From: Shinisaurus crocodilurus
Taxonomy: Eukaryota; Chordata; Lepidosauria; Squamata; Shinisauridae
NCBI GenBank assembly: GCA_021292165.1
Contig: CM037877.1
Location: forward strand, 30,206,197 to 30,270,196
DNA: 64,000 nt
Reading direction: 5' to 3'
The notes under the pieces are model-generated. The model did not search any database and was not told the DNA's origin. It worked only from the letters and a program-made list of their open reading frames with translations. Made by a program: the position numbers and the translations under genes. This document shows, piece by piece, positions 41,209-47,978 of this stretch; the first letter of the stretch is position 1, and each line of letters starts with the position of its first letter.

Positions 41209-42147
41209 TGTGGAGAAAGCCAACCTAAGCCCCCTGCCTGACACACACACACACTCACCAAGGAGGGGGGAAGGAGACCCAGGGGGGGGGAGACAGCCAG
41301 TCTCCACAGATGCCAAAGGGGACAAACAACATCTACATAGAATCACCCCAGGGGGGAAGGCAAGAAGCATCACCAGGTTTGTCAATGCTCTTGCATATCA
41401 GCCCCATCTACATAAGACTTGAATACCTCTCCAGGGCAGACGCTTCGGCACCCCTAAGAAATGGCCACTCAACACCATAGGATGGGACCATTAAGCAAGT
41501 GGCTTCAAAGAGACCCCATCCCACGGGGGGAAGGCGTCACCCCACCTGACCCAAAAGGCCGCCCCTCAGGGAGGGTGTCAACCCACCTGATCACGGAGGG
41601 AGGGGCTACCTGAAACACCAAGGTATAAAACACCCTGCACAAGGGAACTTTTCTCTGGACCTGTTCAGCAATCTTGCCCATGCCTGGGGTAAGGGAACTA
41701 AAGATCGGCAACCCCGGGAAACCAAGCTGAAATCACTGGCCGCTTGGGTTGACCGGACCCCCGGGAAACCAAGCTGAAATCACTCACAAGCCACTTGGGT
41801 AGACCAGGCCTCCGCTGGGAACCCAGCTAGCCGCTTGGGTAGACCGGGCCTCTGCCGGGACCCGAGCTAAACTAACTAGCTGAGAGCCCTGAAATCACGT
41901 TGTCCTTGAGGCTTTTGCTTGCTACTTTGTACCATACTGATAAGCTGTATTGCTGGCGTGGGTCTGGGTTTGTGAAGGTAATTTTGTAAATAAACTTGTT
42001 TTCTAAAAGATACTTTTGTGGCTATAAGTTATCCCTTTGTTCTGGGCTAAGGCAAGGCGCTGGGGACCTCAGAGAAGGCCCGCCCCAGCACCCGCTACCC
42101 CCTTAGCATTGAACCCGCGCAGAAGACCAGGTTGTCGGTCTTCCACT
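41209..42147 (+). repeat. 5' LTR of the gypsy element (939 bp)
   Basis: Starts TGTGGAGAAAGCC and ends CTTCCACT, the PBS following directly. It has two 40-bp tandem units at 41790-41869. TGTAAATAAACTTG near 41985 is a plausible poly(A) signal region. Compared with the 3' LTR it differs mostly by G here versus A there. Confidence 0.92.
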
Positions 42148-42165
42148 TGGTGGTAGCGGTGGGAT
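42148..42165 (+). other. Primer-binding site candidate
   Basis: TGGTGGTAGCGGTGGGAT directly abuts the LTR and begins with TGG, the complement of a tRNA 3' CCA. The primer tRNA species is not assigned. Confidence 0.6.
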
Positions 42166-42222
42166 AACTTATTAGCCCAGAATATCTCCCAGACCCAAAG
42201 TAGCAAGAGCCTAAGGATCACC

Positions 42223-43505
42223 ATGAGCGACCCAGAGCCTGACGGAGCGACTGGGGGAGCCAAACCACGGCGGTCCCTGCCCGCAACCCCCATCACCCCG
42301 GGGTTGGCGGCGCTGATCCGGCAGAGGGAGCTGCTGGCGAGTCTGGCCCAGGGTGCCCGACCCAAGGGCCGCCGTATCCCAGTTCAGACAGATAAGAGAG
42401 AGGATATGGTGACCGAGGACCCCGCTCCTCTAGAGCCTCTGAAGCCCCTCGAGCTTCCCTCGGAATGGATGGCCCACGAGCGGGAGAGGATGGCCCACGA
42501 GCGCGAAATGATCCGGATGCAGATAGAGTTGGCCAAGCTGCAGCTCGAGGCGGGGAAAACTCCCCCGATTGTCCCCTCCGCTCCTCCCCCTCTGTCGTGG
42601 GACCACAAGATGTTCCCCTACTACAAGCCAGAGCAGGATGTCCTGATGTTCTTCCCCATTTTCGAAAAACGGCGTGCCAAGAGCAGCTGGTCCCCGACAA
42701 CTTGCGGTTGTCCGCCCTGCGAACCCAGGTCAGTGGCGACCTGGCCGACCTCCTCAGGGCGCATCTGCGGAAGACCCCGGCGAGCTACGAGGCGTTCAAG
42801 GCAGCGGCCAGGCAACACTTCGCCCTCACCGCCGAACATTGCCGGCAGAAATTTCGAGAGGGTAGACCTTCCCCCGGGACCACCCATGTGGCATGGGCAG
42901 CCCAGGTGATGCACGTCTGCGAGTCCTGGGTGGAGGCTTCCCGGGCCTCCACCCTGAAGGAAGTTGTCGAGCTGATCGCCATGGAGCAGTTCTTCACCAC
43001 CATCCCGAAGGAGCTGGCCGCTGTCGTGAGGGATCAGAAGCCCCGTACCTGTGAGGCGGCGGAGATCATGGCCGACGAGATGGGGCTATACCAGACGGCC
43101 CCATCCACCAAGGGAAGTTCCGCGGCCGTGGCCAAGAAGAAATCGGAGCCAGAGAAGAGCCTGCCCCGACGGCGCGAGGAGGCCCCTCGGACCAAAAAGA
43201 ACCAAAACCCTCGGTCTGGGGCGTGCTTCCACTGTAACGAGATGGGACACCTGCGGCGAGATTGCCCCAAGGTCCGGCCCAAGAACCGGGATGCCCGTCC
43301 CTCGCCGGGGAAAATAGAGCGCGTCGCAGGTGCTGCAGCCGCTCAAGACGACGACAGCGATGACGATCGACGGTCGGTCCTCTCCCTCCATGCAAGCATC
43401 CCCGAGGATCACGGCGCCGAAAAAGATCTCCAAGAGTGGGGTCCCTACCATCCCAGACCCCGTGCATCGCTGTATCGCATCGCCTCCCCAGACCAGCTGA
43501 GATAG
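42223..43505 (+). pseudogene. gag: gag of the gypsy element, one frameshift
   Basis: The frame opens at 42223 (MSDPEPDGATGG) and passes through a charged coiled-coil-like stretch with repeated MAHERE. At about 42660, in an A run, it shifts to another frame that stays open to 43505. Capsid-region sequence (LRTQVSGDLADLLRAHL) precedes a SCAN-like segment at about 42840-43085 with CESWVEAS and ELIAMEQFFTTIPKELAA. A CCHC zinc knuckle C-X2-C-X4-H-X4-C follows at 43224-43265 (CFHCNEMGHLRRDC). The vertebrate SCAN domain is thought to derive from Gmr1-like gag, which fits. Tryptophan codons are retained, unlike in pol. Confidence 0.88.
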
Positions 43506-43800
43506 AGCCGCAAGCAATTCTGTGAGTCCATCTATATCAATAATATAGGGTGGGGTATAGGGACACTAAGGCAGATGTAACGGCTCTGCCCCGGGACCGC
43601 GTAGAAAAGTCCCAACTTTTGTCAAGACGTACGTGTACGATCAAACCCTATAACTCCCCCAACATCACCGTCCCCATCACCCGGGTCCGGGTCAAGTACC
43701 AGGGGTGGGAAGGAGAGATGGACATAATCATCCATCACCAAAAAGAGTAGGGCATCATAATCAAGAACGACCTCGCGTTCCGGGTGGCCAAAGCTAAGAT
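43506..43800 (+). pseudogene. pol: Aspartic protease region of pol, active site damaged
   Basis: In the pol frame, DTKADVTALP at 43562 stands where an aspartic protease has DTGA or DSGA. Lys replaces the essential Gly through an AAG codon. Further on, IIHHQKE-stop-GIIIKNDLAF resembles the second half of the retropepsin fold, and a TAG at 43748 interrupts it. The pol frame differs from that of gag. Confidence 0.75.
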
Positions 43801-44101
43801 GAGAGTCGTCACCCGGGGACAGGCAAGGAGAGGGGGGGCGCCCATAACTGCACCGGTCCCAAAGCCTAAGCCCGTGCCCCCTCCACCACCCGGGGTGACC
43901 CCATCCCCTGCGGGGCACTCCAGAGAGAACCAGGCCATAGCAGAGCCCCCGAAGAACGAAGGGTTTGCCCAGATGGCTAAAGACTTTGAGACTCAAGCCC
44001 AATTCAAGGAAGCCCAGCGGCTAGACCCTTCCTTGCAAGAGTGTCGCAATCTGGCCAAGCAAGACCCCGGGGTATCCCTTGCCACCGAAAGATTTGTCTG
44101 A

Positions 44102-45322
44102 GACAATAGAACTTTGTACCGAGAGTTCGAGCCAAAGGGGGAAGTGGCACCAGAGCGCAAGCAAAGGCAACTAGTGGTTCCCCAACGGTACCGCCATGCC
44201 GTGCTGCACCTCGCCCATGACGTGGCATGGGGAGGACACCTGAGGCAGAAGCAGACCCAAGCTCGAATCACAAAAAGGTTCTACTGGCCCATGATCGCCT
44301 CCGACATTAAAGCTTACTGTCGGTCCTGCGATGTGTGCCAGCGGGTGAGACACAATCGCGATCACCCAAGAGCTCCCCTTCAGCCTTTCCCGGTGGTGGG
44401 GATCCCTTTTGAACAGATTGCTATAGACATAGTGGGTCCCCTGAACCCGCCCACCAAGACAGAAAAGAAGTTTGTACTGACAGTAGTAGACTTTGCCACC
44501 CACTACGCAGAGACTTTTGCGCTAGCCTCCATCTCTGCAGCCAGCCTGGCTAAGACTCTGCTCTCTCTCTTTGCCTGCTTAAGAATGCCCCGCACAGTCG
44601 TGTCGGACTGCAGCACCAGGTTCATGTCTAAACTGTTCCAGAAGATGTAAGACCTGAGGGGGGTTGACCATGTAACTTCAGTGCCTTACCACCACGAGAC
44701 CAACAGACTAGTTGAACGCTTCAACCAGACGTTAGAGAAAATGATCCGGGTGTATGCTAGCCGTCACCCGGGAACTTGAGACCAAGCCCTACCCTACCTC
44801 CTCTTTGCCTACCGAGATGCTCCGCAAGAAAGCCTTGGGTTTTCCCCGAATGAACTGATGTTTAGCAGAGAACTACAAAGGCCCTTGGCTCTGTTGCGGG
44901 AGGAGTGGGAGGGGGCTGCCAGCAGTTCGCCCGTGCCGGTTCACACTTTTCTGTGGCGGCTACGAGACACCCTCCACAGCGTTCGAGAAGCCGCCCAACA
45001 GCATCTGAAGGCAGCCCAGCAGCGGCAAAAGGAGCTGTATGATAAAACCACAATAGCCCAGACTTTTGAAGTAAGTGATACAGTATTAGTTCTGCGTACC
45101 CTCAAAACAGACAAGCTGTGTCTTAAGTGAGAGGGTCCAGAGACTGTAGTTGAGAAACTTAGACCAGTCAACTACAAAATACTCTTTGCCGAGACTCCTA
45201 AAAAATGTAAAGTGTTTCATGTGAATATGTTGAAATTATATGTAGACCAGAGTGCGAGAGTAGGCTGTGTGAAAGAACATAATGATAAAGATTTCGCTAA
45301 TAGAGATCTGTTAAGAGAATGA
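44102..45322 (+). pseudogene. pol: Integrase region of pol, located upstream of RT
   Basis: The N-terminal zinc-binding part (LAHDVAWGGH...CRSCDVCQ) is at about 44200-44345. The catalytic Asp of IAIDIVGP is at 44426, the second Asp of VVSDCSTRF at 44606 and the Glu of LVERFNQTL at 44714, giving a D,D(35)E arrangement. A GPY/F-like C-terminal module (EGPETVVEKLRPVNYKI, then HVNMLKLY) is at 45130-45245. In-frame stops are at 44099, 44648, 44777, 45128 and 45320, all in one frame. In the family the enzyme inserts the cDNA; here it cannot be made whole. Confidence 0.88.
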
Positions 45323-45339
45323 AGAGATGGCGAAGAGAT

Positions 45340-46110
45340 AGAAGAAATTTCACTGTCACCCGCCCTGTCCGAGGCTCAGCGGGAGCAAATGAAGCGGGTG
45401 CTAGATGAATTTGAGACCATGTTCTCAGACCGCCCCGGGCGGACCCCACTCATCCAGCACACCATTCAAACAAGTGACAGCCCCCCTCTGCAATTTCTGC
45501 CATACCAGGCAGTAAGACCCCACGCTTAGGTCATTGCGGAGGAAGTCAAAGCCATGTTAGACCTAGGGGTGATCGTTCCTAGTTCTAGCCCATAGTCCTC
45601 CCCGATTGTCCTAGTGGTCAAAAAAGATGGGGGGGTGCGGTTCTGTGTAGACTATCAAAAAATCAATAAGGTGACCGTCCCTGACCCCATCCCCAACATA
45701 GATGTCTTGCTAGAGAAGCTAGGGAGGGCCAAGTACATTACCACCCTAAACCTCACCAAGGGCTACTGGCAAGTCCCGCTAGACGCGGATGCTGCTCTCA
45801 AGTCTGCCTTTGTCACACACCTGAGTTTATTCCAGTTCACCACTCTTCCCTTCAGAGTCCAGAATGATCCAGCAGCCTTTCAGAGGCTGGTGAATGGAAT
45901 GCTAAACGAGTTAAGAGAAGTTGCCTGTGCCTATCTAGACGACATAGCTATCTTTAGTTCCACTTGGGAACAGCATCTGCAGCATGTCCAGCAAGTCTTC
46001 CAGCAGATCCGGGACGCTAAGTTGACAGTAAAAGCAAAGAAGTGCCAGGTGGGGCTAGGAGAAGTTGAGTACCTTAGACATCGAGTCGGAGGGGGAGCAT
46101 CAAACCCATA
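45340..46110 (+). pseudogene. pol: Reverse transcriptase region of pol
   Basis: The same frame as integrase continues. RPGRTPLIQHTIQT opens it, then VKKDGGVRFCVDYQKIN, motif A TLNLTKGYWQVPL, LPFRVQNDPAAFQRLVN and motif C YLDD at 45932-45943. The motif A catalytic Asp is replaced by Asn (AAC at 45749). Stops at 45527 and 45593 precede the longest open piece (45614-46111). A one-base change in a G run near 46090 then shifts the frame. Confidence 0.9.
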
Positions 46111-46785
46111 AAAGCTAAGATAGAGTCAGTTCAGAAATAGCCCCAACCCGCAACCAAAAAACAAGTGCAGGCTTTTCTAGGACTTGCAAAGTACTATCAG
46201 AAGTTCGTGCCACACTTCAGTCAGCTAGCAGCCCCTCTGACTGATCTTTGTAAAAAGCGCCAACCGAACAGGGTCCAGTAGACCGCGGCTTGCCAGACCG
46301 CTTTCGACAGGTTAAAAGCCTGCCTCACGGCAGCTCCCATTCTGCAAGCCCCAAACTTCGAATCCCCCTTCATTCTACAGACAGATGCCTCTGAGGCCGG
46401 GATGGGGGCGGTGTTATTACAAGAAAAAGTAAGAGAAGGGCTGCGCCCCGTTGCCTACCTGAGCAAGAAACTCCTGCCCAGAGAACGTAGTCTTGCCACC
46501 ATTGAGAAAGAGTGCCTGGCCGTGGTGTGGGCCATCACCAAGTTCTCCCCTACCTCTGCGGGAGACGGTTCCGCCTGCAGACCGACCATTCCCCCCTGTG
46601 CTGGTTAGATAGAGTCAAGGGCAACAACCAAAAACTCCTACAGTAGAGTCTGGCGTTGCAAGACTTTGACTTCGAAATTGAGCACATCAAAAGTAAAGAC
46701 AATGTCTTAGCTGATGCACTCTCCCAAGCTTTCTCAAGTGATAGGCAAGTCGATGAAAAATTGGGGTGTGGGACCCCAATGCCAT
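46111..46785 (+). pseudogene. pol: RT connection and RNase H region of pol
   Basis: After the shift: QVQAFLGLAKYYQKFVPHFS, then the RNase H core with TDASEAGMGAVLL (Asp at 46384), IEKECLAVVWA (Glu), and after another shift near 46550 IKSKDNVLADALSQ (terminal Asp). Stops are at 46138, 46279 and 46644. The end of the frame overlaps the polypurine tract. Confidence 0.86.
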
Positions 46786-46794
46786 CTTTTCCCC

Positions 46795-46807
46795 GGGGGG
46801 GGGGAGA
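46795..46807 (+). other. Polypurine tract
   Basis: A run of ten G followed by AGA directly before the 3' LTR; the plus-strand primer site of the element. Confidence 0.8.
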
Positions 46808-47978
46808 TGTGGAGAAAGCCAACCTAAGCCCCCTGCCTGACACACACACACTCACCAAGGAGGGGGGAAGGAGACCCGGGGGGGGAGACAGCCAGTCTCC
46901 ACAGATGCCAAAGAGGACAAACAACATCTACATAGAATCACCCCAGGGGGGAAGGCAAGAAGCATCACCAGGTTTGTCAATGCTCTTGCATATCAGCCCC
47001 ATCTACATAAGACTTGAATACCTCTCCAGGGCAGACGCTTCGGCACCCCTAAGAAATGGCCACTCAACACCATAAGATGGGACCATTAAGCAAGTGGCTT
47101 CAAAGAGACCCCATCCCACGGGGGGAAGGCGTCACCCCACCTGACCCAAAAGGCCGCCCCTCAGGGAGGGTGTCAACCCACCTGATCACAGAGGGAGGGG
47201 CTACCTGAAACACCAAAGTATAAAACACCCTGCACAAGAGAACTTTTCTCTAGACCTGTTCAGCAATCTTGCCCATGCCTGGGGTAAGGGAACAAAAGAT
47301 CGGCAACCCCAAGAAACCAAGGTGAAATCACTGGCCGCTTAGGTTGACCGGACCCCCGGGAAACCAAGCTGAAATCACAAGCCGCTTGGGTAGACCGGGC
47401 CCCCGCCGGGAACCCAGCTAGCCGCTTGAGTAGACCAGGCTTCCGCCGAGAACCCAGCTAGCCGCTTGGGTAGACCGAGCCTCCGCCGGGAACCCAGCTA
47501 GCCACTTGGGTAGACCAGGCCTCCGCCAAGAACCCAGCTAGCCGCTTAGGTAGACCGGGCCTCTGCCGAGAACCCAGCTAGCCGCTTGGATAGACCGGGC
47601 CTCCGCCGAGAACCCAGCTAGCCGCTTGGGTAGACCGGGCCTCCGCCGAGAACCCAGCTAGCCGCTTGAGTAGACCGGGCCTCTGCCAGGACCCGAGCTA
47701 AACTAACTAGCTGTGAGCCCTGAAATCACATTGTCCTTGAGGCTTTTGCTAGCTACTTTGTACCGTACTAATAAGCTGTATTGCTGGCGTAAGTCTGAGT
47801 TTGTGAAAGTAATTTTGTAAATAAACTTGTTTTCTAAAAAATACTTTTATAGCTATAAGTTATCCCTTTGTTCTAGGCTAAGGCGAGGCGCTAGAGACCC
47901 CAGAGAAGGCCTGCCCCAGCACCCGCTACCCCCTTAGCATTGAACCCGCGCAAAAGACCAGGTTGTCGGTCTTCCACT
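46808..47978 (+). repeat. 3' LTR of the gypsy element (1171 bp)
   Basis: Same ends as the 5' LTR (TGTGGAG...CTTCCACT). It is 232 bases longer, almost all because of eight rather than two 40-bp units. It has many A residues where the 5' LTR has G. Confidence 0.92.
47381..47700 (+). repeat. Eight-unit 40-bp tandem repeat in the 3' LTR
   Basis: Eight consecutive units of exactly 40 bases, each starting GCCGCTTGGGTAGACC or a one- or two-base variant and ending in AGCTA. Variants within GCTTGGG are mostly G-to-A (GCTTGAG, GCTTAGG, GCTTGGA). The 5' LTR has two units (41790-41869). Confidence 0.95.

Follow-up and report, generated by a model that had tools for sequence, protein, structure and literature searches.

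A Ty3/gypsy retrotransposon in a 64,000-nucleotide stretch of the Shinisaurus crocodilurus genome (the window; contig CM037877.1, source genome 2.19 Gb) carries G-to-A hypermutation on its plus strand. That this copy is hypermutated is as good as certain; the signature recurs in its family and is of an already known kind. Deaminase editing of minus-strand cDNA very probably explains it. The insertion is complete, spanning window positions 41209-47978 (all coordinates below refer to the window), with the direct repeat AAGCT flanking both ends, and no second copy of the element was found in the 64,000 nucleotides. A first-pass annotation, made from the letters alone, had proposed AID/APOBEC-type editing of the minus strand, and this proposal fits the strand bias, the sequence context, the restriction to some copies and the rise from primer-binding site to polypurine tract (PPT) described below.

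We aligned the two long terminal repeats (LTRs) over 889 columns, excluding an array of 40-bp units. From the 5' to the 3' LTR, 24 sites changed from G to A, against 2 A>G, 1 C>T, 1 T>C and 4 transversions. Nineteen of the 24 precede another G (Fisher test, GG versus other contexts, P = 4.8e-5; G before purine, GR, versus G before pyrimidine, GY, P = 1.4e-3), while four lie at CpG. The annotation's tally by eye (about 22 G>A, 2 reverse and 6 other changes, with about 17 at GG) came close to the measured 24, 2, 6 and 19. The eight array units of the 3' LTR also differ among themselves, at 8 G/A, 3 C/T and 2 other columns, while 13 arrays from other copies have 0-4 G/A columns. LTR pairs of other copies have 0-6 G>A and 0-6 A>G differences each; the comparison was possible in 9 of 20 copies, in two of these across short blocks, the remaining 11 having no comparable 3' LTR in the fetched piece.

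The excess is equally clear against the family, for which initial searches listed 673-2428 candidates. We sampled it with three pieces per copy for the 20 best gag matches and with the protease-integrase piece for a further 19, aligned piecewise; 32 of these 39 copies were usable and 7 were dropped for coverage. Against six unedited copies with full coverage, the focal copy shows 219-229 G>A changes, compared with 21-38 A>G, 19-25 C>T and 18-33 T>C (GR versus GY, P ≤ 9.4e-21 with each of the six). Shorter references gave weaker results (P = 0.57 for c08, 0.10 for c13 and 0.09 for c14) and mostly span the lightly edited 5' part. Among sites with G in every unedited copy read, 122 of 503 at GG and 24 of 919 others are A in the focal copy, and the same fixed-site test finds C>T at 6 of 1447; GG>AG in the unedited c01, c09 and c18 stands at 6/510, 4/506 and 1/501. 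The family alignment and context test that the annotation had called for thus confirm both the G>A excess and the GG bias. Among private changes in 21 copies, G>A outnumbers C>T by 76 to 8 in the focal copy, 61 to 7 in c11 and 28 to 8 in c00, with 2-18 G>A and 2-17 C>T in the other 18, including c02 (17 versus 5, a nominal bias at P = 0.017) and c15 (18 versus 9).

The annotation had presented this copy as a single-locus example, which it is not. Judged on medians, with the seven highest re-examined, 6 of the 32 usable gag-picked copies are edited (c11, c37, c29, c00, c15 and c02); raw counts also suggested c35, which fixed-G sites did not support and which we dropped. A further 15 copies (n00-n14) were taken from 35 new matches by their similarity to the edited piece 45001-45380. 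Thirteen of these integrase-end copies are clearly edited (GG>AG 10-46%), so edited copies are not rare in the genome; n03 (7%) and n10 (5%) are weakly edited. The signature is nevertheless confined to some copies, as siblings without it are present alongside the edited ones. Some integrase-end copies (loci L094-L108) are edited as heavily as the focal copy.

The coding regions carry scars as well. Counted in three pol frame segments with limits of our choosing, there are 12 in-frame stops. Eleven replace a codon that reads TGG in 80% or more of the unedited copies, and the remaining one is of the C>T type; the six stops singled out by the annotation (44777, 45128, 45593, 46138, 46279 and 46644) all fall at such TGG codons. 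Eight of the 19 tryptophan codons of pol (same threshold) remain. The annotation's statement that gag keeps its tryptophan codons is nearly right, holding for three of four and failing for the one that was lost. Its two missense sites, in the protease (43568) and reverse transcriptase (RT; 45749), likewise have G in all unedited copies with a letter there (25/25 and 8/8). The focal copy also reads with a frame shift in gag near 42.67 kb (42660-42690) and two in pol after 46.1 kb (46100-46640), apparently due to indels.

To define the motif, we pooled 21 copies (the focal copy, c11, c37, c29, c00, c15 and n00-n14, including the weakly edited n03 and n10) over 44001-46807, using positions where 90% or more of the unedited copies have G. 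Editing reached 683/1460 at GGA (46.8%), 191/971 at GGT (19.7%), 263/2145 at GGG (12.3%) and 68/817 at GGC (8.3%), and outside GG it was 5.1% at GA, 1.6% at GC and 2.6% at GT. On the minus-strand cDNA this corresponds to a preference of TCC > ACC > CCC > GCC. GGA also leads in the other edited copies, although n10 hardly displays the motif. The 21 copies are only weakly heterogeneous (P = 0.04 over five contexts; P = 0.14 for GGA versus GGT alone), so we retain a single signature rather than two editors with different motifs. The edit sets of different copies overlap in part, with no pair above a Jaccard index of 0.5, indicating that most edits are separate events; several copies share other variants and hence form one subfamily.

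We propose that a host cytidine deaminase would have attacked this element during one round of reverse transcription. In single-stranded minus-strand cDNA it would convert C to U, chiefly within 5'-TCC (plus-strand GGA), to be read as A during plus-strand synthesis. Exposure time would set the dose, lowest in gag and highest far from the plus-strand start points, and the edited copy would then have integrated with a dead pol. Ordinary post-insertion deamination at methylated CpG has next to no chance of being the cause. Some changes do lie at CpG, namely the four in the LTRs and 4 of 8 focal C>T changes at sites fixed elsewhere, but CpG decay would strike both strands, and it is refuted by the strand bias: neither the equal C>T and G>A rates nor the confinement to CpG that the annotation had associated with such decay is seen, and G before a pyrimidine has become A at 7 of 550 focal sites. 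The genome also encodes AID, which might itself have edited the cDNA in place of an APOBEC1-like enzyme. AID prefers WRC, which is GYW on the plus strand, and the low rates at GC and GT compared with GGA fit this context poorly; we consider AID very unlikely to be the editor. An APOBEC3G-type context was also rejected. Human APOBEC3G hotspots are described as CCC or CC (PMC3961392, accessible text), and while the CC is found here, C at position -2 is unfavoured, as the GGG and GGA rates show.

Candidate editors are present in the genome. AID is encoded at two places (L110 and L111), which differ by one base in 273. At least four APOBEC1-like catalytic exons (L112, L114, L116 and L117) are 52-59% identical to one another, except for L116 and L117 at 82%; three have near-identical second copies on their own contig, some 240 kb away, and a fragment matching L117 (L121) lies on a different contig. 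APOBEC2-like and APOBEC4-like genes are also present. In a structure comparison covering L112 and L110, the nearest solved structures were APOBEC-1 and AID, respectively. The top Pfam model is SNAD4 for three of the four APOBEC1-like exons and NAD1 for one, with APOBEC1 over the cut-off in all four, and hence the name APOBEC1-like is provisional; an NCBIfam search of the deaminases gave no match. One anole APOBEC1 has been described as a potent DNA mutator (PMC3880073, accessible text). The editor here was probably one of the APOBEC1-like enzymes. On the contig region C6:5525398-6484492 (L110-L118), the near-identical AID places are about 210 kb apart and the APOBEC1-like blocks about 240 kb apart, which reflects either a segmental duplication of recent date or haplotype duplication in the assembly. 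A further APOBEC2-like catalytic exon (L119) is separate from the longer APOBEC2 match (L109) and about 27% identical to it.

Editing is not evenly spread along the element. In the focal copy, GG>AG rises from 4/81 on the gag side (42148-43540) to 9/43 in 43541-44000 and 23/34 in 45001-45380, and the rise from primer-binding site to PPT (Spearman 0.68, P = 2.5e-4), lowest in gag, is the gradient that the annotation had invoked. It is also significant alone in c11 and c37, but not in c29, c00 or c15. We then combined the focal copy, c11, c37, c29, c00 and c15 (set 1) in context-normalised 200-bp bins. Values are 0.2-0.8 up to 43347, 0.55-0.95 up to 44147 and 0.8-1.1 through integrase; they peak at 1.90 in 45148-45347, fall to 0.54 in 45348-45547, recover to 1.0-1.45 and reach 2.21 in 46548-46747 before a last bin of 0.69. 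A similar fall follows the 3' PPT in the five copies with a 3' LTR, where GG editing goes from 30/109 before the tract to 12/170 and 9/80 in U3, returning to 17/65 and 15/73 in R and R-U5.

A free scan of set 1 places the largest drop of this saw-tooth at 45350, with 95 edits observed and 58 expected before it and 13 and 27 after it (300-bp windows). Within-context site permutations over 43700-46800 match the drop in 3 of 1000 cases. A five-base context leaves the break at 45350, the six largest drops all falling at 45340-45390, and each of the six copies has a lower raw GG rate 3' of 45350 than 5' of it. Some of the set 1 copies were classed as edited from 43541-45380, a span that covers both the plateau and the peak, so that choice alone does not create the step. 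The copies n00-n14 (set 2) show 301 observed and 194 expected edits before 45350, an excess that is biased, as they were picked with the edited piece 45001-45380, and that we do not count; with this piece excluded, 45381-45649 is still low in these 15 copies (43 observed, 67 expected; 19 of 5000 permutations as low). Five extra copies, picked by the integrase piece 44001-44560 as a test free of this bias, gave nothing usable, two being unaligned, two unedited and one partial (GG edits 3/6 before 45350 and 1/9 after).

This profile is evidence for a second plus-strand start near 45.35 kb, although the exact primer was not found, and we lean slightly towards such a start as the cause of the saw-tooth. 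The drop in editing downstream that marks a central PPT is seen at 45350, just 3' of the 36-mer with the highest purine content in the internal region. HIV-1 shows lower editing immediately 3' of its polypurine tracts (PMC3310730, accessible text). The competing explanation, which we rate at somewhat below an even chance, is a cluster of unmodelled hotspots in the purine-rich, GGA-rich stretch 5' of the drop. Such hotspots do exist, as shared edits reach 1.0 to 2.2 times their context expectation in the 15 pairs tested, and they are common to several copies; the purine tract itself carries edits, and with 200-bp windows, 17 of 1000 permutations reach the drop. Set against this are the 300-bp permutations, the break that holds with five-base context and the trough that persists outside the probe piece. 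Several further observations weigh against the second start. The candidate tract has no purine run of nine or more in at least half of the unedited copies, longer runs at 43707, 43825 and 44134 have no comparable drop, c15 has no excess before 45350 (5 observed, 6.3 expected), and the peak is missing in n06 and nearly so in n04. A PPT primer is also expected to be shielded from editing, yet the GG sites of the tract are edited at the average rate (17/72 and 40/176, with 22% for all GG). PPTs may contain a pyrimidine (PMC3185511, accessible text).

The LTRs may in turn record the timing of editing. In the focal copy, GG>AG is found at 2 of 69 sites in the 5' LTR and 16 of 78 in the 3' LTR, and within the 3' LTR edited GG sites number 6/54 in U3, 9/27 in R and 4/11 in U5 (U3 versus R plus U5, 6/54 versus 13/38, P = 0.009; Mann-Whitney P = 3.3e-4; U3/R limit drawn by eye). 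In the standard scheme of reverse transcription, edits made before plus-strand strong-stop DNA is copied reach both LTRs, while later edits reach the 3' LTR only. The focal LTR edits would postdate this copying, leaving only the 3' LTR edited, and re-exposure from the U5 side followed by late refilling would leave U3 less edited than R-U5. We reject 3'-LTR-only editing as a general rule, as c11 has both LTRs edited alike (15/69 and 19/78, with 4 G>A and 1 A>G between them).

Alternatively, an unedited copy may have supplied the present 5' LTR after insertion, by replacement or conversion, in which case the 3'-only pattern would be silent on timing. In favour of this, the arrays differ in length, with two units in the 5' LTR (41789-41869) and eight in the 3' LTR (47380-47700). 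Leaving G/A differences aside, the LTR pair differs at 6 of 889 columns (0.7%), and the 5' LTR differs from other copies by a median of 0.8% (lowest 0.1%). The pair is therefore no closer than separate copies, which weighs against editing in sequence with strong-stop copying and keeps later conversion in play. However, 8 of the 9 other copies compared also have LTR arrays of unequal length (in two of the eight, one array is unresolved), the target duplication is intact and, from an unedited 5' end, editing climbs gradually across gag. We consider conversion unlikely and prefer editing after strong-stop copying.

The features of the element are listed in Table 1. Integrase placed before RT is a mark of Gmr1, and gag here has a SCAN-type capsid domain. 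On its domains and gene order, where we found no difference from Gmr1-like Gypsy elements, it is classed as a Gmr1-like Ty3/gypsy element. The accessible texts state that the SCAN domain derives from Gmr1-like Gypsy elements (PMC3424704) and that more than half of frog Gmr elements carry SCAN (PMC4131045). At six of seven other LTR loci (L002-L007), none of three internal pieces tested lies within about 1.5 kb, so these may be solo LTRs.

Table 1. Features of the hypermutated element, in window coordinates. U3, R and U5 limits were drawn by eye from the TATA box and AATAAA.
Feature	Position	Strand	Description
5' LTR	41209..42147	+	939 bp with two 40-bp array units; practically free of editing; GG>AG 2/69 against unedited copies
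Primer-binding site	42148..42165	+	Placed by eye; TGG start abuts the LTR; presumably matches the 3' end of tRNA-Leu
gag	42223..43505	+	SCAN-type capsid domain (PF02023, 4.7e-14) and CCHC knuckle (PF00098, 4.1e-6); lightly edited
Protease-like and linker region	43544..44098	+	Protease label from the first-pass annotation; no Pfam match in 43544-43747; editing rising
Integrase region	44102..45380	+	5' of RT; most heavily edited; PF17921 (3.5e-19), PF00665 (3.4e-6, below Pfam's cut-off); 3' limit set by us
Candidate second plus-strand start zone	45313..45348	+	Most purine-rich 36-mer of the internal region; editing drops just 3' of the tract
RT and RNase H	45381..46740	+	PF00078 (5.7e-26), PF17919 (1.5e-31), PF17917 (2.8e-22); edited; two frame changes
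3' PPT	46795..46807	+	Immediately 5' of the 3' LTR
3' LTR	46808..47978	+	1171 bp, edited, editing climbs from U3 to R-U5
40-bp array of 3' LTR	47380..47700	+	Eight units; G/A differences among units

Editing of LTR retrotransposons across vertebrates has been described by Knisbacher and Levanon (2016), as cited in PMC6523648, PMC7760323 and PMC5391955, and the plus-strand G>A excess in copies of an LTR family is common to their work and ours. Set beside that work as the citing papers present it, the features found here are the TCC motif, the host APOBEC1-like paralogs and the saw-tooth profile. The annotation had stated that such editing of LTR elements is reported for lizards and birds; this agrees with the vertebrate-wide reports but not with the anole, for which the accessible text of PMC3880073 reports G>A editing in L1 and not in LTR elements. 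The anole case resembles ours in being non-mammalian G>A editing with a lizard APOBEC1 that mutates DNA, and differs in that here a Gypsy element is edited. The HIV-1 twin gradient, with protection downstream of the central PPT (PMC3310730, accessible text), shares with our profile the lower editing after plus-strand starts, although HIV-1 is lentiviral and the saw-tooth here sits in a Ty3/gypsy element. Our search of the literature, mostly short of full texts, found no report of this motif or of a central PPT in a vertebrate Gypsy element.

Hypermutated genomic copies can be read as a record of reverse transcription, including the sites where the plus strand starts and the moment at which the LTRs are exposed. 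The saw-tooth most deserves to be followed up, along with the motif and the APOBEC1-like genes. Gmr1-like elements may have a second, central place close to the integrase-RT junction at which the plus strand begins, much as lentiviruses do, with fossil editing by an expanded set of TCC-preferring APOBEC1-like enzymes recording both starts and the order of LTR editing relative to plus-strand strong-stop synthesis; we regard the case for this as evenly balanced. The present element is a clear case of LTR-element editing in a genome with several APOBEC1-like genes, and its TCC motif could be matched to one of these paralogs.

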